Source: a virus. From it: a stretch of DNA of 29,964 nucleotides. The notes beneath the pieces were generated by a model that ran no database searches, was not told the DNA's origin, and was given only the letters and a program-made list of their open reading frames with translations. The translations under genes and the position numbers were made by a program. This document shows positions 5,529-29,738 of the stretch, in pieces; the stretch's first letter is position 1; the number at the start of each line of letters is the position of its first letter. The DNA is taken from positions 1 to 29,964 of the IMG/VR virus record IMGVR_UViG_3300005515_000044; one strand, 5' to 3'.

Positions 5529-8500
5529 ATGGCGAATGACAATACCGATGACCTGATTATCAGTATTTCGACTGACCAGGCCACGCTTCGCCGCAGCATC
5601 AAGCGCATTGAGACCGACCTTGGCGTTCTCGCCGGGACTGTCAAAAAGCAGTTCGACACAGTCGGCAAGAGCATCGACAACTCGATTACGTCGACGATGC
5701 AAAACCGCATCAACGGCATGGTGGGGATCGGCACAAAGGCCGCCAAGGAATGGACCGGCGCACTTGCCGATCAGGGCGAGGAGTTGGAACGGCTACGCGC
5801 CAAATACAGCCCGCTCTTTAATACCATCAATAATTACAAGATGGCGGTCTCGGACATCCGCCGCGCGCATGCAATTGGCGCGATTTCCGCCAACGAAATG
5901 GCGGCGGCTATCAGCAAGGAACGGCAGGCAGCGCTTGCGTCAACAGCGGCCATTAAGGGCCGAAATGCGGCCCTGGCCGACACGCCAACGCAGCGATCTG
6001 GTGGCAGTGGTGGGTCGTATAATACAGCCAACCTTGCCGCACAGTTTCAGGATATCGCCGTAACCTCTGCGATGGGCATGAGCCCGCTGCAGATCGCTCT
6101 TCAGCAGGGCACGCAGATTTCCGCAGTGCTAGGACCAATGGGCGCCGCTGGCGCGGTGAAGGGCCTTGGTGCGGCATTCCTGTCGGTCATCAGTCCCGTT
6201 TCATTGGCGACAATTGCATTTGTAGCCGCCGGCGCGGCTGCCATCCAATACTTCAGTTCGATGGACTGGGGCAGTGGCAAGTCAGAAGAAGCGCTGAAAA
6301 AGGAAGCCGAGCTTATTCAACGTATCGTTGATAAGTGGGGCGAGGCGCTTCCAGAGCTGAAGAAGTATGCCGACGAGCGCCAGAAGCTCGCCGATGGCAA
6401 GGATATCAAGGAAGCGGCGGCGATCGAAGCTGCCAAGCAGTGGGACGATCTTCGAACGAAGGTCAAGAACGTCAATGTCGAGTTTGCAGACGTCATTACG
6501 ATGCTGCAAAACGCAGGCGCCGAGACTGGTCAGGTAATCGGTCTCCAGCGGGCGTTTAACGACCTGTCGAAGGGCATAAAAGACGGCACTGCCACTTCAG
6601 AGCAGGCGAAGACCGTTCAAAACGCCCTCGCCGACTTCGCCAAGGAAACCGGTATCCCGGCTATTTCCGAGTTTGCGAAACAGTTTGACGAACTAGCTAA
6701 GTCGATCGACGCGTCGTCTATCAAGGCAGGCAAATTAAAGCAGGAAGCGGCGGTTCTCGTCGATCTGATGAAGGGCTTGCCGCCACTAGGCACGCTCAAT
6801 CCGATGACTGCGCAGGATGGCCGGTTCATGACCGACGCCATGGAGCAACAGAACCAGCGCGCCATCGATGCTGCGAACGCCGACCCGACCATTCTTAGCA
6901 ACGGCCAGTACATTCCGGTTCCTACGCCAACTGCTCGACCAAATATCGAGTTGGAGGGCCTGCCTGGCGACGCGGCGAAGAAGGAACAAACGGCCGCAGA
7001 AAAAGCGGCCAACGCCTACCGAGACCTGATGAAGTCGGCTGATGACCGTATCGGCCAGATGAAGCAGGAAATCGACCTGCTTGGCAAGTTCGGCGTTGAG
7101 GCTGATGCCGCCCGTTTCGCTCTCGACCTGCTTCAAAATTCGGAAGACAAGGGCCGGTCGCTAAGCGAGGAGCAGCGGAAGGAACTCGAGAAGAAGGTCG
7201 CGCTCTACAAGCAGTATTCCGAGACGCTCGCCAAGGCGAAGCTGTCGCAGGATCTGCTGGAGGAACGTCGGCTCAAGGGAATGTCAAAGACCGACCAGAA
7301 CGTCTATCAGACGCTCAAGGAATACGGTCTGCCGACAAATCTCGATAGCGACGAGGCGAAAAAGATTCGCCAGGCGATCAATATCAACGATCTTTCCGAT
7401 GGCATCCACTCGTTCTTTACGGACTTCTCGTCCGCATTGCAGGAAAACGGTGGCGATATCGGTGAGGCATTCGCCAAATCACTGAAAACGGCCGCACTCA
7501 ACGCCCTGAACAAGTCGCTTGAAGATATCTTCGCGCGGCTGTCGGAAACGTTGGCAACAGCCCTTCTTGGCGGAGGCGCTGGCGCTGGAAGCGGCGCCGG
7601 TGCACTTGGCGGGGTTGTTGCCAAGGCGCTTGGGACCGAGATAAGCGGAAAGGCGCCGGTCGGTGCGGTGACGCGTATGGCGCTTCCAGATGTTGGCGCC
7701 ACGACAGACATCGCCGCCTACATCTCCAAGGCGGCAGCCGCACGAGGCATTGACCCGTCCATCGCGCTTAAGGTTGCGAAGTCTGAGGGCGGCTTGAATA
7801 GCTGGAACCTTCAGTCGAGTTACTTCAAAAACGGGGTTCAGGAACCCTCGTTCGGGCCATTCCAGTTGTACAAGGGGGGCGGCCTCGGCAATGACTTTAT
7901 GCGTAAGACCGGTATGGACCCAGCACTTGCGTCCAGCGGTCCTGCTGGCGTGGACTTCGCGCTTGATCACGCATCAAAGAACGGCTGGGGTGCATGGTAC
8001 GGCGCGGCGAAGGTCGGCGTAGGCAAGTGGGATGGCATTGGCGCGAATAACGCTTCCGACGCCGTCAACAAGATGGCCGAGTCGGCGGGCGCTGCGACCA
8101 AGGGCCTAGACAGCATGGCAGGCGGGCTGGGTAAGGTCGGCCAGCAGCTTTCGACAAGCTTCTTCCCAGCAGCGCCTTCCGCGCCAGGTGGCGGAGGGCT
8201 TGGCGGTCTGTTTTCCGGTCTTTTCGGAGGCGGCGGCGGAGCAAACCTGTCGAAATATCAGGGCATGGTTGGCCTCTTCGCCGAAGGGGGCGTCATCCGC
8301 GGCCCCGGCAGCGGCACGTCCGACAGCATCCCGACGATGCTCTCTGATGAAGAGTTCATCGTCAACTCACGCCAAAGCAAGAAGCATCGCGCTCTCCTGC
8401 ATGCCATCAACAACGGCACGATTGGCCATATGGCCGCCGGCGGCGTTGCGCGCAGCATAGGCGCACCTGTTGCTCCAGCGCTAGCGGCACGCCGTACGGC

Positions 8501-8681
8501 TGCAAACGACAACGCCAACCCAGGCATCCTGCTGGTCCAGATCGTTGGCGCCAGCGGCGATGATCACGTCCGTATGCTCGTGAAGCAGGGCGTTGGCGAG
8601 GGGCTGCAGCAATACAATAAGTCTCAAGAGCGCGGCGGCTTCGGCACGTTGCAGGGCCGCTATAACGCGCAAAAGGGCTGA
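5529..8681 (+). CDS. Tape measure protein with internal lytic transglycosylase-like domain
   Basis: It sets tail length and is ejected through the tube at infection. The 1050-residue length, long helical stretches and position identify it. Residues about 1-130 are coiled-coil; a TMP_2-like hydrophobic region follows (AAQFQDIAVTSAMGMSPLQI, then a Gly/Ala-rich membrane-active stretch around 180-245). More coiled coil runs to about 690. A lysozyme-like domain lies near 726-840 (ARGIDPSIALKVAKSEGG, with a Glu placed like the transglycosylase acid, then PSFGPFQLY), fit for local wall digestion during DNA entry. The C-terminus has the usual FAEGGVIRGPGSGTSDSIP, then LSDEEFIVNSRQ. ANDN tetrapeptides occur at both ends of the protein. 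Confidence 0.93.
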   Translation: MANDNTDDLIISISTDQATLRRSIKRIETDLGVLAGTVKKQFDTVGKSIDNSITSTMQNRINGMVGIGTKAAKEWTGALADQGEELERLRAKYSPLFNTINNYKMAVSDIRRAHAIGAISANEMAAAISKERQAALASTAAIKGRNAALADTPTQRSGGSGGSYNTANLAAQFQDIAVTSAMGMSPLQIALQQGTQISAVLGPMGAAGAVKGLGAAFLSVISPVSLATIAFVAAGAAAIQYFSSMDWGSGKSEEALKKEAELIQRIVDKWGEALPELKKYADERQKLADGKDIKEAAAIEAAKQWDDLRTKVKNVNVEFADVITMLQNAGAETGQVIGLQRAFNDLSKGIKDGTATSEQAKTVQNALADFAKETGIPAISEFAKQFDELAKSIDASSIKAGKLKQEAAVLVDLMKGLPPLGTLNPMTAQDGRFMTDAMEQQNQRAIDAANADPTILSNGQYIPVPTPTARPNIELEGLPGDAAKKEQTAAEKAANAYRDLMKSADDRIGQMKQEIDLLGKFGVEADAARFALDLLQNSEDKGRSLSEEQRKELEKKVALYKQYSETLAKAKLSQDLLEERRLKGMSKTDQNVYQTLKEYGLPTNLDSDEAKKIRQAININDLSDGIHSFFTDFSSALQENGGDIGEAFAKSLKTAALNALNKSLEDIFARLSETLATALLGGGAGAGSGAGALGGVVAKALGTEISGKAPVGAVTRMALPDVGATTDIAAYISKAAAARGIDPSIALKVAKSEGGLNSWNLQSSYFKNGVQEPSFGPFQLYKGGGLGNDFMRKTGMDPALASSGPAGVDFALDHASKNGWGAWYGAAKVGVGKWDGIGANNASDAVNKMAESAGAATKGLDSMAGGLGKVGQQLSTSFFPAAPSAPGGGGLGGLFSGLFGGGGGANLSKYQGMVGLFAEGGVIRGPGSGTSDSIPTMLSDEEFIVNSRQSKKHRALLHAINNGTIGHMAAGGVARSIGAPVAPALAARRTAANDNANPGILLVQIVGASGDDHVRMLVKQGVGEGLQQYNKSQERGGFGTLQGRYNAQKG

Positions 8682-8777
8682 CCGGCGCCGCGTCTGAACC
8701 ATGGGTTACGGTAGTTGGCTGGCGGCACCGGTTGCGACCAACGTCGCTCCCAAACAATCAAAAGTCAAGGGGCCGCT

Positions 8778-20634: not shown

Positions 20635-21875
20635 CCACACCACCACTCACCGACGAACAACTCGACGAAGCCGTCGCCGCCCTCAAGGAACACGGCAGCC
20701 AGGTCGCAGCCGCATCCGCCCTTGGCCTCGCGCGGTCTTCTTTCCAGAACCGCCTCAGACGGGCGGCCGAACGCGGGATGCTTGGCGTTAAGCCGGTGTT
20801 GCCGGGGTTCCGCATCAGCCAGGTGACCTCCACGCCGAATGGTGACTTCGTCCAGCAGAAGCCGGAGCGCGGCGAAGAGTGGGCGCTGCCCGACGGCCAT
20901 AGCGTCAAGGGCGTCTCGGCGCTCGTCGATGCGGAAGGGCGGACGATTCAGCAATGGATCAAGACGAAGGAAGAGCCGTCGGCCGTCGATATCGCCGCGA
21001 TGCTTAAGTCGGCATTCGACGACGTTGCGCCAGCTGAGCCCATTCCAGCACCTCTCGTCTCGGAAGATGACCTTCTGACGCTCACGCCCCTCGCTGACTT
21101 CCATGTCGGTCTCTTCGCGTGGCATCGCGAAACCGGCGCGAACTGGGATCTGTCGATCGCCGAGCGAGTTATCGGTTCCGCTCTCGACGACTTGATTGCC
21201 AGAACTCCGCCGAGCGGTCATGCCATCGTTTTGGGCGGAGGCGATCTGCTCCACAGTGATTCTAACGAGAACAAGACGGCAAAGTCTGGCAACGTCCTTC
21301 AGGTCGATGGGCGTTACCAGAAGGTGCTGATGACCGCCTGCAGGCTGGTCGTGCGCGCCATTGACGCCAACCTCGCCCGCCACGGTCACGTGACCGTCCG
21401 TGTCTTGCCAGGCAATCACGACGAACACGCATCAGTCGCCGTCGCCTATTTCCTTCTGGCTTGGTACCGCAACGAGCCGCGGGTGACTGTCGACGTAGAC
21501 CCGTCGCTGTTCTTCTGGTTCCGCTTCGGAAAGGTGCTGCTCGGGGCGACGCACGGCCACACCGTCAAGCTCAAAGATATGGCCAGTATCATGGCCCACC
21601 GCCGCGCTGAAGACTGGGGCGCGACGGTCCACCGGTTCATTCACGGGTTCCACATCCACCACTCGAGCAAGTACGCGACAGAAGGCAATGGCGTGATTTC
21701 GGAATCGCACCAGACGCCTACGCCGCAGGACGCTTGGCACTGGGGCGCCGGCTTCTTGTCCGGTCGGTCGATGCAGGCGATCTCGTATCATCGCGAGTTC
21801 GGGGAAGTTTCGCGCGTGCGGGTCGCCATGATGGATGCGGCCAATGACAACGTGCCGTCGCGAGCGGCCGCGTGA
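20631..21875 (+). CDS. HTH-metallophosphoesterase fusion
   Basis: A 414-residue protein. Residues 9-46 form a helix-turn-helix (EHGSQVAAASALGLARSSFQ and on), followed by a linker to about 150. The calcineurin-like phosphoesterase domain then shows all metal motifs: D156-F-H158, GGGD205, G261-N-H-D, H308-G-H310 and HGFHIHH near 338-344. Such enzymes cleave nucleotides, cyclic nucleotides, or nucleic-acid ends with two metal ions. The start is an unusual TTG overlapping the previous stop codon, with AAAGG upstream. An ANDN motif lies near the C-terminus. It may process DNA ends or signalling nucleotides; the HTH suggests action on DNA. Confidence 0.87.
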   Translation: MTTPPLTDEQLDEAVAALKEHGSQVAAASALGLARSSFQNRLRRAAERGMLGVKPVLPGFRISQVTSTPNGDFVQQKPERGEEWALPDGHSVKGVSALVDAEGRTIQQWIKTKEEPSAVDIAAMLKSAFDDVAPAEPIPAPLVSEDDLLTLTPLADFHVGLFAWHRETGANWDLSIAERVIGSALDDLIARTPPSGHAIVLGGGDLLHSDSNENKTAKSGNVLQVDGRYQKVLMTACRLVVRAIDANLARHGHVTVRVLPGNHDEHASVAVAYFLLAWYRNEPRVTVDVDPSLFFWFRFGKVLLGATHGHTVKLKDMASIMAHRRAEDWGATVHRFIHGFHIHHSSKYATEGNGVISESHQTPTPQDAWHWGAGFLSGRSMQAISYHREFGEVSRVRVAMMDAANDNVPSRAAA

Positions 21876-22585
21876 CCATTCACTACCACGGAACGCCGCT
21901 CACGCCGCGAGCCGAGCTTGAAAAGATGAGGGGCAAGCACCTTTGCGTGTCCTTCGCCAATCCCGGCGATGCTGACTGGTGCCTAGCGAACGCTCAGTCG
22001 GTACTTTGGGATAATGGCGCTTACGTCTTCTACAGCAGCGGCAGGCCGATACTCAACTGGTCCAAGTTCTACATCTGGGTTGAGCCAAGGTTGGGTCACC
22101 CGCATTGGGCTGTGGTTCCTGACGTTATTGGCGGTGGGGTGGAAGACAACCTGGCGCTGATCAAGCAATGGCCATTCCGTAAGGAACTTGCTGCTGTCGT
22201 TTGGCACCTAGACGAGCCAATCGAACATCTCATCGCGTTGGTGGAGATGGGCTTCGGTAAAATATGTTTCGGGTCGGCCGGGGCATATTGGCAGGTCGGC
22301 TCCGAAAGGTGGGCAAGAAGAGTAGATGAGGCATTTAACGCTCTTATCCGTCACTTCGGCCACTTGCCTTGGATTCACATGCTTCGAGGCCTAGCGGTAT
22401 GCGGTGACATCTGGCCGTTCGCCAGCGCGGACAGCACGAACGTTGCCAGGAACTTCAAAAACAAGGGCAACGAGGTTTGCCCTGAAAGAATGGCGCGGCG
22501 TATCGACGCCGTGCAGAGCCCAATCAAGTGGGTAGATAGAACCGCCAACCACCACAGAGGAGACCTATTCGATGTCGCAGCTTGA
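21872..22585 (+). CDS. TGT/DpdA-like base transglycosylase family protein
   Basis: A 237-residue protein with a TIM-barrel look. LWD47NGAYVFY resembles the D-S-G-(A/S)-(F/Y) motif with the first catalytic Asp of tRNA-guanine transglycosylases. AVVPDVIGGG (83-89) and AVVWHLDEP (108-116) are barrel strands, IHMLRGLA resembles the H-x-L-G strand, and FASAD187STN resembles the second Asp motif. It opens with the HYHGTPL block of phage relatives. TGT enzymes swap a guanine for a 7-deazaguanine base in tRNA; phage DpdA relatives do so in DNA. It is shorter than both and lacks the four-Cys zinc site. A GTG start overlaps the phosphoesterase stop. Neighbouring VUT transporter and deoxyribosyltransferase-like genes support base exchange. 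Confidence 0.6.
   Translation: MTIHYHGTPLTPRAELEKMRGKHLCVSFANPGDADWCLANAQSVLWDNGAYVFYSSGRPILNWSKFYIWVEPRLGHPHWAVVPDVIGGGVEDNLALIKQWPFRKELAAVVWHLDEPIEHLIALVEMGFGKICFGSAGAYWQVGSERWARRVDEAFNALIRHFGHLPWIHMLRGLAVCGDIWPFASADSTNVARNFKNKGNEVCPERMARRIDAVQSPIKWVDRTANHHRGDLFDVAA
22549..22564 (+). repeat. Left copy of a 16-bp direct repeat
   Basis: CCACCACAGAGGAGAC, identical to the copy at 23527. It supplies the ribosome-binding site (GAGGAG) of the deoxyribosyltransferase-like gene while still coding for the end of the transglycosylase-like gene. The two copies bracket exactly two genes. Confidence 0.75.
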
Positions 22586-22970
22586 GAAAACAATCTATTT
22601 GTGCGGGCCGATTAACGGCTGCACCGACGAGGAATGCAAGGACTGGCGCGAGTTCGTCAAGTCCAAGTGGGAAGGCAAGACGCTCGACCCGATGCGGCGC
22701 GACTACCGCGGCAAGGAAGATGAATCAGTCAAGGAGATTGTCGAGCTCGACAAGATCGACGTCACCGATTCCGATGTCATCCTCGTCAACTACGACAAGC
22801 CGAGTGTCGGCACATCCATGGAAATCCTCTATGCCTTCGATCGCGGCAAACTCGTCGTCGTTGTAGCCAAGGAAGGCACGCGCATTTCCCCGTGGATGCG
22901 CTATCACAGCCACAAGATCGTCGGCTCATTCGAAGCAGCTATCGAGTTCGTGCGGGATTTCTACGCATGA
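22572..22970 (+). CDS. Nucleoside 2-deoxyribosyltransferase-like protein
   Basis: The family cleaves or exchanges the bond between base and deoxyribose through a Glu nucleophile. The 132-residue protein has the opening strand IYLCGPI, PMRRDYRGKED, DVTDSDVILVNYDKP and GTSME84ILYAFD, where E84 is the candidate nucleophile, then SPWMRYHSHKIV. Size and motif order fit. It starts inside the 3' end of the transglycosylase-like gene with GAGGAG upstream and overlaps the VUT gene by ATGA. It may supply or remove free bases from deoxynucleosides. Confidence 0.82.
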   Translation: MSQLEKTIYLCGPINGCTDEECKDWREFVKSKWEGKTLDPMRRDYRGKEDESVKEIVELDKIDVTDSDVILVNYDKPSVGTSMEILYAFDRGKLVVVVAKEGTRISPWMRYHSHKIVGSFEAAIEFVRDFYA

Positions 22971-23491
22971 AGAAGCTGGCTCTCTTGATGGCGGCTTTTG
23001 CCGCCACGGTCCCCGCCGCCAACTGGCTTATCAGCAACGTCGGCACGGTCTGCATTCCATCTGGCCCGTGCCTCATCCCAGTCGGATTCGGTTTAACCGC
23101 TCCGTCTGGCGTGTTGCTTGTAGGTCTGGGCTTAGTCTTGCGGGACATGGTGCATGAGGCTGGCGGCGTTCGCGCATCTATGCTGGCTATCGCTATCGGC
23201 GGAGTTCTGTCGGCGCTGTTCGCGCCTCCGGCTTTGATATTGGCTTCAATCGCGGCATTCATCCTGGCCGAGTTGGCAGACCTTTTTGTTTATGCGCCAC
23301 TGCGCGAGAAGCGCTTTGGGTTGGCCGTTCTGGCGAGTGGCGCAGTCGGTGCGGTGGTCGACAGTGCGGTATTCTTGCTGCTGGCCTTCGGGTCTCTCGC
23401 TTTCATCGAAGGACAAATTCTAGGCAAGCTCTGGATGAGCCTACTGGCCTTCGCTTTTATCGCATACCGGCGACGCGCTTTGCTCGCCTAA
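22967..23491 (+). CDS. VUT-family (YhhQ-like) queuosine-precursor transporter
   Basis: A 174-residue integral membrane protein with about six spans. The pattern ANWLI, then IPVGFGLTAPSGVLLVGLGL, LRDMVHEAGG, ASIAAFILAELADLFVYAPL, VVDSAVFLLLAFG and GKLWMSLLAF is that of the VUT (PF02592) family, whose studied members import 7-cyano-7-deazaguanine (preQ0) or related queuosine precursors. Such a transporter in a phage right after a transglycosylase-like gene suggests salvage of a 7-deazaguanine base. Translation is coupled to the upstream gene; a hairpin and the second 16-bp repeat follow. Confidence 0.83.
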   Translation: MKKLALLMAAFAATVPAANWLISNVGTVCIPSGPCLIPVGFGLTAPSGVLLVGLGLVLRDMVHEAGGVRASMLAIAIGGVLSALFAPPALILASIAAFILAELADLFVYAPLREKRFGLAVLASGAVGAVVDSAVFLLLAFGSLAFIEGQILGKLWMSLLAFAFIAYRRRALLA

Positions 23492-23546: not shown

Positions 23547-24113
23547 ATGGAAATCGTAGGCACACTTAGAAACGCGCGCCGTGTCAGCGCGAGGGAAGAC
23601 ATGCGTGGTCCCTGCCTTTACGGGCAGGTCTACGGCGATACGAAGGGCCGCTTCCTGGACGGCGAGTACATCACCACCAGCACAATTATGAGCGAGGACG
23701 GGGACCTCTTCAAAACGCGCTACAGCGCCTACAAGGTCGAGCATTGGGCTGGCCAGCCGAGCAAGCCGGTTGTTGCTGCGAATGACAACTACTCCGACCT
23801 GCGCGCTGCAAACGTCGCGCGCCAGAAAGAGTGGGACGGCGACGACCAGATTGACCTGGCCTATCGCGGCAATGAACTCGCCGGCGAAGTTGGCGAGGCT
23901 TGCAACGTCATCAAGAAACTCGAGCGCGAGCGCCGTGGTATCGCAGGCTCTCGCGACACCGTCGCGCATCTGGCCGAGGAACTTGCTGACATCATCATCT
24001 GCACCGATCTGGTGGCAATGCAGGCCGGTATCGACCTGAACAAGGCGGTCGCCGCCAAGTTCAACGCCACGAGCGAGAAGGTCGGGCTTCGCACCCGCTT
24101 GGTGGCGGCATGA
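23547..24113 (+). CDS. MazG-like nucleotide pyrophosphohydrolase with N-terminal extra domain
   Basis: MazG-type enzymes hydrolyse NTPs/dNTPs or alarmones to monophosphates. In this 188-residue protein the MazG half is C-terminal: GNELAGE114VGE117ACNVIKKLE and HLAEE145LAD148IIICTDLVA supply the metal-binding Glu/Asp set. The first 75 residues form a separate beta domain (GPCLYGQVYGD, GEYITTSTI, RYSAYKVEHW) that many small phage proteins carry alone. An ANDN linker joins the two. It fits a nucleotide-pool or anti-signalling role beside the deoxyribosyltransferase-like and kinase genes. Confidence 0.82.
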   Translation: MEIVGTLRNARRVSAREDMRGPCLYGQVYGDTKGRFLDGEYITTSTIMSEDGDLFKTRYSAYKVEHWAGQPSKPVVAANDNYSDLRAANVARQKEWDGDDQIDLAYRGNELAGEVGEACNVIKKLERERRGIAGSRDTVAHLAEELADIIICTDLVAMQAGIDLNKAVAAKFNATSEKVGLRTRLVAA

Positions 24114-24325
24114 ACTACGGACAGGCTATTGAGGCCATGAAGGCTGGAAAGCCAGCGAGACGCACCGCCGCCGGATACGTGCATCTCGCTCACCGCGGCA
24201 CACCGCTGCAGTATCTCGAAGCCGTTGTCGCTGGCGAGGGGCGCAAGCCATACATCCCGTCGATAGACGACCAACTGGCGGAAGACTGGCAGGTGCCGCA
24301 GGCGCCCGTGAAGGAGGCTGCGTGA
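24110..24325 (+). CDS. DUF2829/Tad2-like protein (possible anti-Thoeris)
   Basis: A 71-residue protein opening with NYGQAIEAMKAGKPARR and ending with YIPSIDDQLAEDWQV, the conserved ends of the DUF2829 family. Members of this family named Tad2 sequester the nucleotide signal of the Thoeris defence system. The middle lacks the usual Trp after the basic helix (RRTAAGYVHL instead of an R-x-G-W type) and is short, so signal binding here is uncertain. It is coupled by ATGA to the MazG-like gene. A counter-defence role is inferred from the family. Confidence 0.68.
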   Translation: MNYGQAIEAMKAGKPARRTAAGYVHLAHRGTPLQYLEAVVAGEGRKPYIPSIDDQLAEDWQVPQAPVKEAA

Positions 24326-24927
24326 TGTACGTGTTCAGAAACGAATCTCCTGTGCCGGTCGAACTCTCTACCACCACCTTCGGCCCGCTCGACAAGTACG
24401 TCGCCGCCAACGACAACGTGCCGCAGGATGAAAGCGGCCAGTCGGCTGGATTTGGGTTCGCCTCCATCCGCGGCGAACTGGGCAGCGGCAAGCCATACCT
24501 CTATAGCGAGGAGGAGCTTGCCGCCAAGGAAGACCCTCTGGCAGCTATCGCCAACCTGCCTGGCTTCATCTATCTCGGCTCACCTTACGCCAAGTACCAT
24601 GCTGGCATGGACGAGGCCGCGCGCGTCGTCACGCAATGCGCCGGCAAGCTTATGGCTCGCGGCCTGCGGATCTACTGCCCGATTGCACACGGTCACGCCG
24701 TGACGCGCCATCAGGAACTACCGCGCACCTGGGATTACTGGAAAGACCAGGATCAGCCTTTGATCGATGCAGCCTCGGCGCTCATCGTTCTCGAAATGCG
24801 CGGTTGGTGGGATTCGGTCGGTCTCAAGTACGAGTTCGAGTCGTTCTTGGCCGCAGGCAAGCCGATTGTCTATCTCGAGCCGTATGATCTTGGCGTGTTC
24901 GAACGGGGTGTGCGGAGGTCGGCGTGA
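24325..24927 (+). CDS. DUF1937 protein, deoxyribosyltransferase-like fold
   Basis: A 200-residue protein whose C-terminal 125 residues are clear DUF1937: FIYLGSPYAKYHAGMDEAAR, LMARGLRIYCPIAHGHAV, YWKDQDQPLIDAASALIVLE, GWWDSVGLKYEFE and GKPIVYLEP. This family shares the fold of nucleoside deoxyribosyltransferases, with the Glu in KYEFE in the place of the nucleophile. The N-terminal 75 residues are low-complexity and hold an ANDN motif. I take the ATG after AAGGAGG; an in-frame GTG one codon upstream is possible. It is the second protein of this superfamily in the operon. Confidence 0.8.
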   Translation: MYVFRNESPVPVELSTTTFGPLDKYVAANDNVPQDESGQSAGFGFASIRGELGSGKPYLYSEEELAAKEDPLAAIANLPGFIYLGSPYAKYHAGMDEAARVVTQCAGKLMARGLRIYCPIAHGHAVTRHQELPRTWDYWKDQDQPLIDAASALIVLEMRGWWDSVGLKYEFESFLAAGKPIVYLEPYDLGVFERGVRRSA

Positions 24928-25695: not shown

Positions 25696-25970
25696 CCACC
25701 ATCAAGCCCGGCGACGAGGTTGTCTGTGTCGACGACAGCACCCTTCCACTGCAATACCTCGGCATCCGTGCCGGGGAGATCTACAAAGCCCGATGGGTCG
25801 GACCGGTCACCAGCTATCTGAACGGCGACTACATCGGCGTGCGGCTGGCCGGCATTAACCGCGGCGTCTGCCCTGAATTCGGAGATGAGGATCCGCCATT
25901 TCGGGCAAGTAGGTTCCGGCCAGTCGTGAAGCCGTCGGCACCAGTGCGAGAATTGGAGGAGGCGCTATGA
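25692..25970 (+). CDS. Conserved small phage protein, SH3-like
   Basis: A 92-residue protein whose first 75 residues look like a small beta-barrel: KPGDEVVCVDDS, then GIRAGEIYKARWVG, YIGVRLAGIN and an RASRFRPV end. This G-D-x-V-x-C-V...L-x-x-G-x-x-Y pattern is very common in phage accessory proteins of unknown role. Overlapping start and stop codons link it to its neighbours. Confidence 0.68.
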   Translation: MTTIKPGDEVVCVDDSTLPLQYLGIRAGEIYKARWVGPVTSYLNGDYIGVRLAGINRGVCPEFGDEDPPFRASRFRPVVKPSAPVRELEEAL

Positions 25971-26299
25971 AGCTTGCGGTTATTGGCAGTCGCGGGTTCC
26001 GTGACCATCGCCTTATGCATGAACGTCTCTCAGAGATGCGGCCAACACTTGTCATAAGCGGCGGCGCTAAGGGCGCAGACCAAATGTCGGAGACGTGGGC
26101 GCGGCGAATCGGCGTGCCCACCCAGATTTTTCTGCCAGACCATAAGACGTACAAGCACGCCTTCCACCATCGCAACCGCCTAATAGCCGAAGCTTGCGAT
26201 CATCTGATGGCGTTCTGGGACGGATCATCGACTGGGACCAAATACACGATTGGTTACGCTCGCCGGATCGGCAAGCCGGTAACCGTGGTGAGATATTGA
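25967..26299 (+). CDS. SLOG-family protein (DUF2493/YspA-like)
   Basis: A 110-residue Rossmann-type protein. KLAVIGSRGFRDH is the first strand and nucleotide-binding loop, VISGGAKGADQMSETWARR is the GGAxGAD motif of the SLOG superfamily, FLPDHKTYKHAFHHRNRLIA and DGSSTGTKYTIGYAR complete the set. SLOG proteins bind nucleotides or NAD-derived ligands and occur in anti-phage and signalling systems. In this operon, with Tad2-like and MazG-like genes, nucleotide-signal binding is plausible but unproven. Confidence 0.82.
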   Translation: MKLAVIGSRGFRDHRLMHERLSEMRPTLVISGGAKGADQMSETWARRIGVPTQIFLPDHKTYKHAFHHRNRLIAEACDHLMAFWDGSSTGTKYTIGYARRIGKPVTVVRY

Positions 26300-28339: not shown

Positions 28340-29704
28340 TTATGTGTTTTCTTGCCGAATCCAGTCGATATCGAACTTGATAGTCTCCAGAAACTCCTGC
28401 CGCCGCTTCATTTCTGCGCCGTCACCGTAGGTGGGCCGGCCGAACTCGTGCCCCATAAGGTCGGCCTGCATGCGGTCGGAGGCGTCGGCGTTCTCAATTC
28501 GATCTTGGAAGGTGTGGCGTAACGAATAGACCGTGTGCCTCTCGGTAGGGCGCAGGCCGTTCTTCTCCATGATTTTGTTGATGATGGCCGAAGCCGAGTC
28601 GGCCTTGTCTGCATATCGCGGAAAGCCGTTCGGGTGCTGTTTGGCGGCCCACAGCGCCACGCCTACGAGCGGGATGCGGCGAATGGAGTAATCTGTCTTC
28701 TGGCGCCTGTCGGTGCGCTCAGCGACCTCGACATGCGGCACGGCGTCATCTAGCCGAATATCCTGCCGGCGGAGGTTGCACACTTCGCCAAGCCGCATGC
28801 CTGTCTCGGACATGATATAGACGATGTGCCTGGCATCCTCGTTGAGGTTGTCCATCGCGCCAGCCTTGAGTATGTTGTCGCGCACCCACGCTGCGGGGAA
28901 CGGCATGCGCTTGTCGAGCTTGGTGGCGTTGGTCTCCTTCAGACGAACCTTGTCCCACGCCGTGCGGTATTCGGTGTGCAGCGCGTCGTCTATGACGGTA
29001 AGCATGCCCTTTATGTCGCTGAAGCTTCGATTCGCGCTGTATGCCTTGAGGCTTTCCTTCTTCTTGCCGCCGGTCGTCTCTGCGCCTTTGGCGATTTTTT
29101 CGATCCACCAGTCGCGGAACCGGAGCACGTCGTTGCGCGTAACATCTGCCCATCGTGCATCGCCAAGCAGGTCTTTCAGGTAGCTTATGGCTCGCTGGCG
29201 GGAAACCTTGTGCTTTGATATCTGCCGCGGTGACATGCCGGTGAGGCCGGCCTTGTTGTATTTTTCGTAAAGCTCCCAGGTGTTGCTGATGCGCGGATCC
29301 GGTTCAGGCGCGAGCCCTAGGACGCCTGCCGGAATGGCGACGCTTGTCTCGAGATGTTGTGAGGCAACGGCGGCGCGCTCCCTGAACTCGTCTAGCGGCG
29401 TCATCGCCACCTCCTCCACCGGTCGATAGGTGAACCCCAAGGACTGCGCGGCCTTCACGGCTCGCTCATATTGCTCGATCGTCGATGCGTTGTCGTTGCT
29501 GCTGGCGATCGCCACCCAAAGCGCGGTGGTAGCCTTGTGGATTGCCTCGGCGCGCTCCAAGGCCTCTTTGTGGCTTTTCGTCTTTAAGCTCTTTTTGACA
29601 TGGGGCGCACCGCCAGTCTTGGCATGAACCTCCAACGGGATGCGCCGGTAATATCGATAGACGCCGCTTGGCTGCTTCTGAACGTATTTCGACAGATCGT
29701 CCAC
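28340..29704 (-). CDS. Tyrosine site-specific integrase (DUF6538-type N-terminus)
   Basis: It catalyses phage integration and excision. With a GTG start five bases after GGAGG the protein has 454 residues; an in-frame TTG upstream would add 11. The N-terminus (SGVYRYYRRIPLEVHAKTG, HVKKSLKTKSHKEAL) is the DUF6538 arm-binding type, followed by a SAM-like core-binding domain (about 140-250). The catalytic domain shows R304 in ETGMRLGEVCNLR, R396 in YSLRHTF (Tyr where box II often has His), H419 in LMGHEFG and nucleophile Y426 in RPTYGDG. The gene reads away from the adjacent tRNA-Asn, the usual layout for tRNA-targeted integration. An SNDN motif lies near residue 70. Confidence 0.93.
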   Translation of the reverse strand: MDDLSKYVQKQPSGVYRYYRRIPLEVHAKTGGAPHVKKSLKTKSHKEALERAEAIHKATTALWVAIASSNDNASTIEQYERAVKAAQSLGFTYRPVEEVAMTPLDEFRERAAVASQHLETSVAIPAGVLGLAPEPDPRISNTWELYEKYNKAGLTGMSPRQISKHKVSRQRAISYLKDLLGDARWADVTRNDVLRFRDWWIEKIAKGAETTGGKKKESLKAYSANRSFSDIKGMLTVIDDALHTEYRTAWDKVRLKETNATKLDKRMPFPAAWVRDNILKAGAMDNLNEDARHIVYIMSETGMRLGEVCNLRRQDIRLDDAVPHVEVAERTDRRQKTDYSIRRIPLVGVALWAAKQHPNGFPRYADKADSASAIINKIMEKNGLRPTERHTVYSLRHTFQDRIENADASDRMQADLMGHEFGRPTYGDGAEMKRRQEFLETIKFDIDWIRQENT

Positions 29705-29738
29705 CGTATCCTCCTGTGTATCCAAATATGTAGCCAAT

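Follow-up and report, generated by a model that had tools for sequence, protein, structure and literature searches.

Three consecutive overlapping genes on the viral contig IMGVR_UViG_3300005515_000044 from IMG/VR (positions 21872-23491) probably form a transferable cassette for the salvage of a 7-deazaguanine and its insertion into DNA. The window analysed is the entire contig of 29,964 bases. The three open reading frames (ORFs) described in the first-pass annotation of this sequence were all found on the plus strand, with successive overlaps of 14 and 4 bases. They encode a predicted short base-exchange enzyme of 237 aa resembling DpdA and tRNA-guanine transglycosylases (TGTs) (PHROG 887; 21872..22585, GTG start), a protein of 132 aa of the nucleoside deoxyribosyltransferase (NDT) superfamily with a DNPH1-like active site (22572..22970, ATG start after an AGGAGA-type site), and a VUT/QPTR (YhhQ-type) transporter of 174 aa, a predicted importer of a queuosine precursor (22967..23491). 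The cassette reading is based on homology, fold, conserved residues, recurrent linkage and purifying selection, from which we infer the substrates, the direction of transport, phage DNA as the target and protection against restriction.

Modification of DNA with 7-deazaguanines is a known means by which phages escape restriction enzymes, and the DpdA of phage 9g puts preQ0 into DNA. In the proposed mechanism, the transporter would import a preformed 7-deazaguanine (preQ0, preQ1 or a related base), and the short DpdA-like barrel would swap guanine in DNA for the imported base by means of its conserved Asp pair; this pairing of the transporter with a DpdA acting on DNA is considered likely. The middle protein would, most likely, hydrolyse the N-glycosidic bond of 7-deazaguanine nucleoside 5'-monophosphates originating from tRNA or modified DNA, and the freed base would return to DpdA, although this exact role, base release for DpdA, is proposed with some reserve.

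HMM (hidden Markov model) searches indicate the relationship of the 237-aa protein to phage DpdAs, as the first-pass annotation had supposed. The protein matches PHROG 887, named 'queuine tRNA-ribosyltransferase', at 1.8e-37, relatives of it are encoded in 102 phage records, and the HMM of its family retrieved three known phage DpdAs, with both Asp motifs aligned: those of phage 9g (3e-7, 8,641 ORFs searched; a weak though significant match), Edwardsiella phage ZHS (9e-12) and Salmonella phage 7-11 (4e-63). These motifs, DNGAY (D47) and ADST (D187), are present as noted earlier, and 24 residues, including D47, D84, H112, G134 and D187, are invariant across 46 relatives; by alignment, D47 and D187 are presumed to be the catalytic Asp pair of a TGT-like barrel. 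No Pfam or NCBIfam model matched the protein; the Pfam model of DpdA, PF23859, left the DpdAs of 9g, ZHS and 7-11 equally unmatched, and it covers a different DpdA subfamily, e.g., that of phiLM21.

AlphaFold 2 modelling (pLDDT 86.7, pTM 0.84) predicted a TGT-type (beta/alpha)8 barrel for this protein. The VIA-align comparison of the model placed TGTs first (1iq8: Z 15.1, root-mean-square deviation (rmsd) 4.2 over 221 residues; 4dxx: Z 14.6, rmsd 3.0 over 205 residues), and 48 of the top 50 rows were TGTs or the TGT-like Cap10, with Z of about 14-15. Second in rank stood Cap10 (9ntn; Z 15.0, rmsd 3.3 over 214 residues), the TGT-like component of type IV CBASS, an immune system. When PDB sequences were searched with the profile of the DpdA family, no TGT was found; a DAHP synthase, the best match of that search (E 0.16), was judged to be a chance hit. 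Altogether, the fold evidence for a TGT barrel is supportive, not decisive.

The protein does not appear to be a bacterial tRNA-guanine transglycosylase, as judged from its sequence, since it has no match to PF01702 (tRNA-guanine transglycosylase) and lacks the zinc site. The suggestion that a zinc-less enzyme of only 237 aa would represent a distinct type was rejected: the zinc motif CxCxxC was found in none of the 239 family members and is also absent from the DpdA of 9g, and the short zinc-less form is an ordinary phage DpdA of this family. In a prophage of Ensifer aridi LMR001 (locus L287), the dpdA gene (8001-8683 of the locus) consists of two overlapping ORFs (8001-8363 and 8198-8683) and is apparently frameshifted; the adjoining transporter gene is intact.

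The transporter is found beside DpdA far outside the window. The linkage was counted in IMG/VR among dereplicated loci that have flanking sequence to either side, a neighbour being a partner within 1.5 kb; the transporter lies beside DpdA in 39 of 48 DpdA loci and, conversely, DpdA lies beside the transporter in 38 of 44 transporter loci. These proportions are valid for this part of the family only, and the reciprocal queries were derived from members already linked. DpdAs of two subfamilies, the window type and the phiLM21 type, take part in the pairing. The transporter is no chance neighbour of DpdA, which agrees with the functional set postulated at the outset. Of 54 dereplicated loci with the NDT-like gene, 36 have DpdA beside it, almost always as an overlapping or immediately neighbouring gene of the same strand, and the linked DpdAs belong to three subfamilies (window type, phiLM21 type and 9g/ZHS type); five raw loci of this kind also contain QueC and FolE. 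The order DpdA, NDT-like protein, transporter recurs in five loci (L100, L101, L102, L105 and L135). A Pfam scan of 108 proteins neighbouring the NDT-like genes without a DpdA match, phiLM21-type control loci included, revealed no shared theme except two matches to the DpdA model. No report of the link between the NDT-like gene and DpdA was found in the literature searched, the coverage of which was partial, so that a prior mention is possible.

Other small genes accompany dpdA in related loci. In 25 loci (e.g., L010:5771-6004, L026:5723-6001 and L013:6711-6956), dpdA is immediately preceded or followed by the gene of a conserved protein of about 80-95 aa (CPxD...QExLT...THxGV), which may be a new partner of short DpdAs; it shows a weak similarity to the T-fold of GTP cyclohydrolase I and QueF (PF01227, 5e-4 for one member, below the cut-off), and a dpdA neighbour in Caulobacter phage DMCA is annotated as 6-carboxytetrahydropterin synthase. 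This FolE/QueF-like mini-protein (about 85 aa) was rejected as a missing part of the cassette, being absent from the window. Two loci (L039:4936-6004 and L044:4939-6001) encode the transporter, a short QueC (about 180 aa; PF06508, 2e-42 in L039) and a short DpdA in a row, i.e., they are DpdA cassettes with one preQ0 synthesis gene only.

The three genes look like one unit gained or lost together. In the window, the dpdA-like gene begins at a GTG that overlaps the stop codon of the preceding gene, which is exonuclease-like, and the cassette sits exactly between this gene and MazG. In Rhizobium phage 16-3, a small ORF and a DUF2829 gene come after the exonuclease-like gene; in Rhizobium phage RHph_X2_25, a small ORF, MazG and a DUF2829 gene do so. 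Both phages are without the three cassette genes (the flanks were matched by annotation and blastn). It is this contrast of an occupied and an empty site that suggests gain or loss as a unit. The dN/dS values of the three genes against their relatives are 0.05-0.14, with dS near saturation; the low ratios indicate that the genes are maintained.

The start of the transporter at ATG 22967, in an ATGA overlap with the preceding gene, is backed by relatives, and the ORF start at GTG 22892 is not favoured. The protein matches PF02592 at 5.9e-11 (43.4 bits, curated cut-off 27.2), and characterised QPTR proteins carry preQ0/preQ1 or queuine (PMC11130926). Transporter relatives are rare in phages: only six of 50,697 phage records contain one at 1e-5, of which five, representing four phages, carry a DpdA-type gene no more than about 1 kb away, the sixth record being short and unannotated. 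Rhizobium phages RHph_N3_2 and RHph_X2_30, Sinorhizobium phage phiLM21 and Pseudanabaena phage Pam5 possess the pair of DpdA and transporter. The record MT837598.1, labelled as a bacteriophage, encodes a VUT homologue; the neighbours of this gene resemble ferrochelatase and GrpE, and the record may therefore be bacterial DNA. In Devosia sp. ZB163, the transporter subfamily of the window adjoins QueC, DpdB (PADLOC, 1.9e-120) and a 429-aa DpdA (PADLOC, 7e-152), and queC-transporter pairs also occur in Microvirga alba BT350 and Ensifer sp. LCM 4579; these neighbourhoods tie the subfamily to 7-deazaguanine in DNA. The bacterial dpd islands (dpdA, dpdB, queC) thus share the transporter subfamily with the window, but their DpdA is longer, DpdB is present and precursor genes are on site. 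The queC and VUT pairs of Devosia, Microvirga and Ensifer (L298, L299, L300 and L301) suggest that VUT is likely a regular member of bacterial dpd islands.

The middle protein had been described as deoxyribosyltransferase-like, and this holds for the superfamily, as seen from the match to PF05014 (2.3e-8, 34.6 bits, curated cut-off 28.8), the NDT-superfamily fold and the catalytic Glu (E84), but not for the Asp typical of true NDTs, which is replaced by the Ser of N-glycosidases. The predicted structure (pLDDT 93.7) resembles the whole superfamily, transferases and hydrolases alike, including the true transferase 7o62 (Z 16.9, rmsd 2.1 over 126 residues), MilB 4jem (Z 15.6, rmsd 2.4 over 130) and DNPH1 8qhr (Z 14.3, rmsd 2.5 over 119). 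Among 82 relatives, Y9, D60 and E84 are invariant and position 78 is Ser in 81 and Thr in one; in the alignment, Y9, D60, S78 and E84 correspond to Y24, D80, S98 and E104 of DNPH1, i.e., to its Tyr/Asp/Glu triad and its phosphate-binding Ser. In DNPH1, S98 binds the 5'-phosphate (PMC10603095), and true NDTs have Asp or Asn there, holding the free 5'-OH of nucleosides (PMC12884076). Such an Asp or Asn was found in none of the 82 sequences. The Ser in its place, as in DNPH1, points to a nucleotide substrate, and the 132-aa protein is predicted to be a nucleoside 5'-monophosphate N-glycosidase. It shares the fold and the catalytic Tyr/Asp/Glu with DNPH1/Rcl, MilB and DmtZ, an NDT-family enzyme that acts in the modified-base metabolism of Z-DNA phages (PMC12884076), and with DNPH1 also the Ser in place of the NDT Asp; however, its identity to these proteins is only about 17-23% in structural alignments, and its gene has DpdA, not PurZ or DutZ, as the linked partner.

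No preQ0 synthesis genes had been noticed in the window, and the searches found none: QueC and QueD were absent from the 29,964-base contig, as were FolE and QueE (local HMM), and in 17 related contigs QueC was found in none and QueD in one. The preQ0 genes are absent from the contig, but the contig is a 30-kb fragment, so their absence is not proven for the phage; the 'unseen left half' in which they were to be sought does not exist, the record being this contig. Related prophages reside mainly in Rhizobiales (Agrobacterium, Ensifer, Devosia, Rhizobium, Microvirga and Bradyrhizobium). Nine host genomes containing a prophage with DpdA and the transporter, of unstated completeness, all have a full TGT, and in all nine PF02592 matches also lie on contigs other than those of the prophage, as judged by contig numbers only. 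The QueC match was strong (E <1e-50) in six of them and weak in three, which suggests that the host may be the source of the precursor in most cases, with an external supply in some.

A salvage route into DNA, supported by the present analysis, is not a new idea. Hutinet et al. in 2019 reported 76 phages with DpdA and without preQ0 genes, suggested that these take the precursor from the host or from outside, and observed that some phages encode YhhQ homologues (PMC6884629). Phages with DpdA only, such as 7-11 (group 3 in PMC6884629) and Pantoea phage MED16 (PMC8306585), share the short DpdA subfamily with the window (the subfamily HMM matches the DpdA of 7-11 at 5.7e-64 and that of MED16 at 3.5e-75), have no detected preQ0 genes and would depend in the same way on 7-deazaguanine from the host or outside. 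Unlike the window, in which a transporter and an NDT-like gene form an overlapping set with dpdA, 7-11 and MED16 yielded no transporter, NDT-like or T-fold gene in HMM searches; in the Rhizobiales-phage relatives of the window, unlike in these two, the transporter adjoins dpdA. The DpdA pathway of 9g and CAjan has a homologous base-exchange enzyme with both Asp motifs, but 9g makes its own preQ0 and dG+ (folE, queD, queE, gat-queC) (PMC6884629), its DpdA has 317 aa against 237 aa, and the modification levels of the pathway are far above those of DpdA-only phages (PMC6884629): about 30% of G is modified in CAjan, a preQ0-making phage (PMC6884629), against 50 dADG per million nucleotides, or about 0.02% of G, in virion DNA of 7-11 (PMC6884629) and about 0.13% of G as dADG in that of MED16 (PMC8306585). 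One testable interpretation is that the supply of precursor limits phages with DpdA alone and that a transporter would relieve this limit.

Several results weigh against the salvage cassette. Modification was very low in both assayed phages of the same family, 7-11 and MED16 (PMC6884629, PMC8306585), and the dADG of MED16 conferred little protection against restriction (PMC8306585); DpdA relatives in phages HK106 and 7-11 lie without a transporter, and the linkage loci are the closest relatives of the queries, with a bias to the window subtype. Other TIM barrels, such as PdxJ 6rg0_A (Z 14.1, rmsd 3.1 over 193 residues), match the DpdA model nearly as well as TGTs do, and a Foldseek search with this model gave no PDB match at E <0.001, transaldolases and PdxJ, all at E >0.001, occupying the top ranks. 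The transporter scores below the cut-off of the equivalog model TIGR00697 (41.7 against 50.95 bits), and it represents a diverged subfamily, best described as a member of PF02592 and not as a proven equivalog. For the 132-aa protein, DNPH1 and true NDTs are not told apart by comparing folds, and the match to the nearest solved sequences, DNPH1/Rcl, is marginal (E 0.017).

The middle protein could instead be a DmtZ-like phosphodeoxyribosyltransferase passing deoxyribose 5-phosphate from a normal deoxynucleoside monophosphate (dNMP) to the imported 7-deazaguanine; the product would then be phosphorylated and polymerised in parallel to DpdA. DmtZ both hydrolyses dAMP and carries out a transfer to the Z base (PMC12884076), a precedent that makes the transfer reaction a real rival for this gene; the fold is common to true transferases such as 7o62, and a dNMP kinase homologue is encoded in the same phage (26735-27418). 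Yet the adjacent DpdA, the most constant neighbour of the gene, would then be largely redundant, and dNMP kinases also occur in related phages without the cassette. The transfer reaction is considered unlikely; with a Ser, as in nucleotide N-glycosidases, where true NDTs have Asp, the protein more plausibly releases bases from nucleotides.

It is less probable still that tRNA is the target of the cassette. In this case, the short TGT would swap guanine in tRNA as in the queuosine pathway, to the benefit of phage translation, and the transporter would supply preQ1 or queuine. The TGT fold and the PHROG name would agree with this, but the 237-aa protein has neither the zinc site nor an extra RNA-binding part, the hosts of the related prophages own full TGTs, the closest characterised relatives are DNA-acting DpdAs, and it is DNA that is modified in two phages of the same family (PMC6884629, PMC8306585). 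The same dADG in phage DNA, together with the strict conservation of the catalytic Asp pair, makes it highly improbable that the TGT-like protein has left nucleic acids altogether and binds or conjugates 7-deazaguanine as a counter-defence, e.g., against deazaguanylation immunity (type IV CBASS), for which the structural resemblance to Cap10 and a nearby Tad2-like gene (PF11195) might be adduced.

The source of the contig is a temperate siphophage-like element. The contig extends from a head-tail adaptor at one end to an integrase (28340-29737, minus strand) at the other, so that a head module may be missing from the record. The head-tail adaptor, tape measure and tail fibre genes on the left are followed by an endolysin, and to the right of it lies an early or nucleotide-metabolism block, and then the integrase; blastn indicated phages of Rhizobium and Sinorhizobium as the nearest annotated DNA relatives over the block. 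PADLOC gave no match for the three cassette genes of the window. About 0.6 kb downstream of them, a protein with a Tad2-like domain (PF11195, 7e-11; 24110-24325), possibly anti-Thoeris, is encoded, and the same block contains a DUF1937 protein with affinity to the NDT superfamily (24322-24927) and a YspA/SLOG-type protein (25967-26299), further nucleotide-binding Rossmann-like proteins.

Perhaps, as a tentative generalisation, the DNPH1-like protein of the NDT superfamily is a general part of 7-deazaguanine DNA-modification pathways, working with three different DpdA subfamilies, with or without de novo preQ0 synthesis, freeing or transferring bases at the nucleotide level and thereby recycling them from tRNA and degraded DNA into phage DNA. 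The cassette offers a candidate for an enzyme that would recover 7-deazaguanine bases from nucleotides, and it is small enough for a direct test of the 2019 salvage proposal in E. coli. If the salvage cassette works as proposed, three proteins, namely a transporter, a short enzyme for base exchange and a glycosidase acting on nucleotides, would suffice in some phages for modified DNA with no biosynthetic pathway, the modification would depend on supply from the host and its neighbours, and the evasion of restriction by these phages would be tied to the exchange of queuosine precursors in the community.

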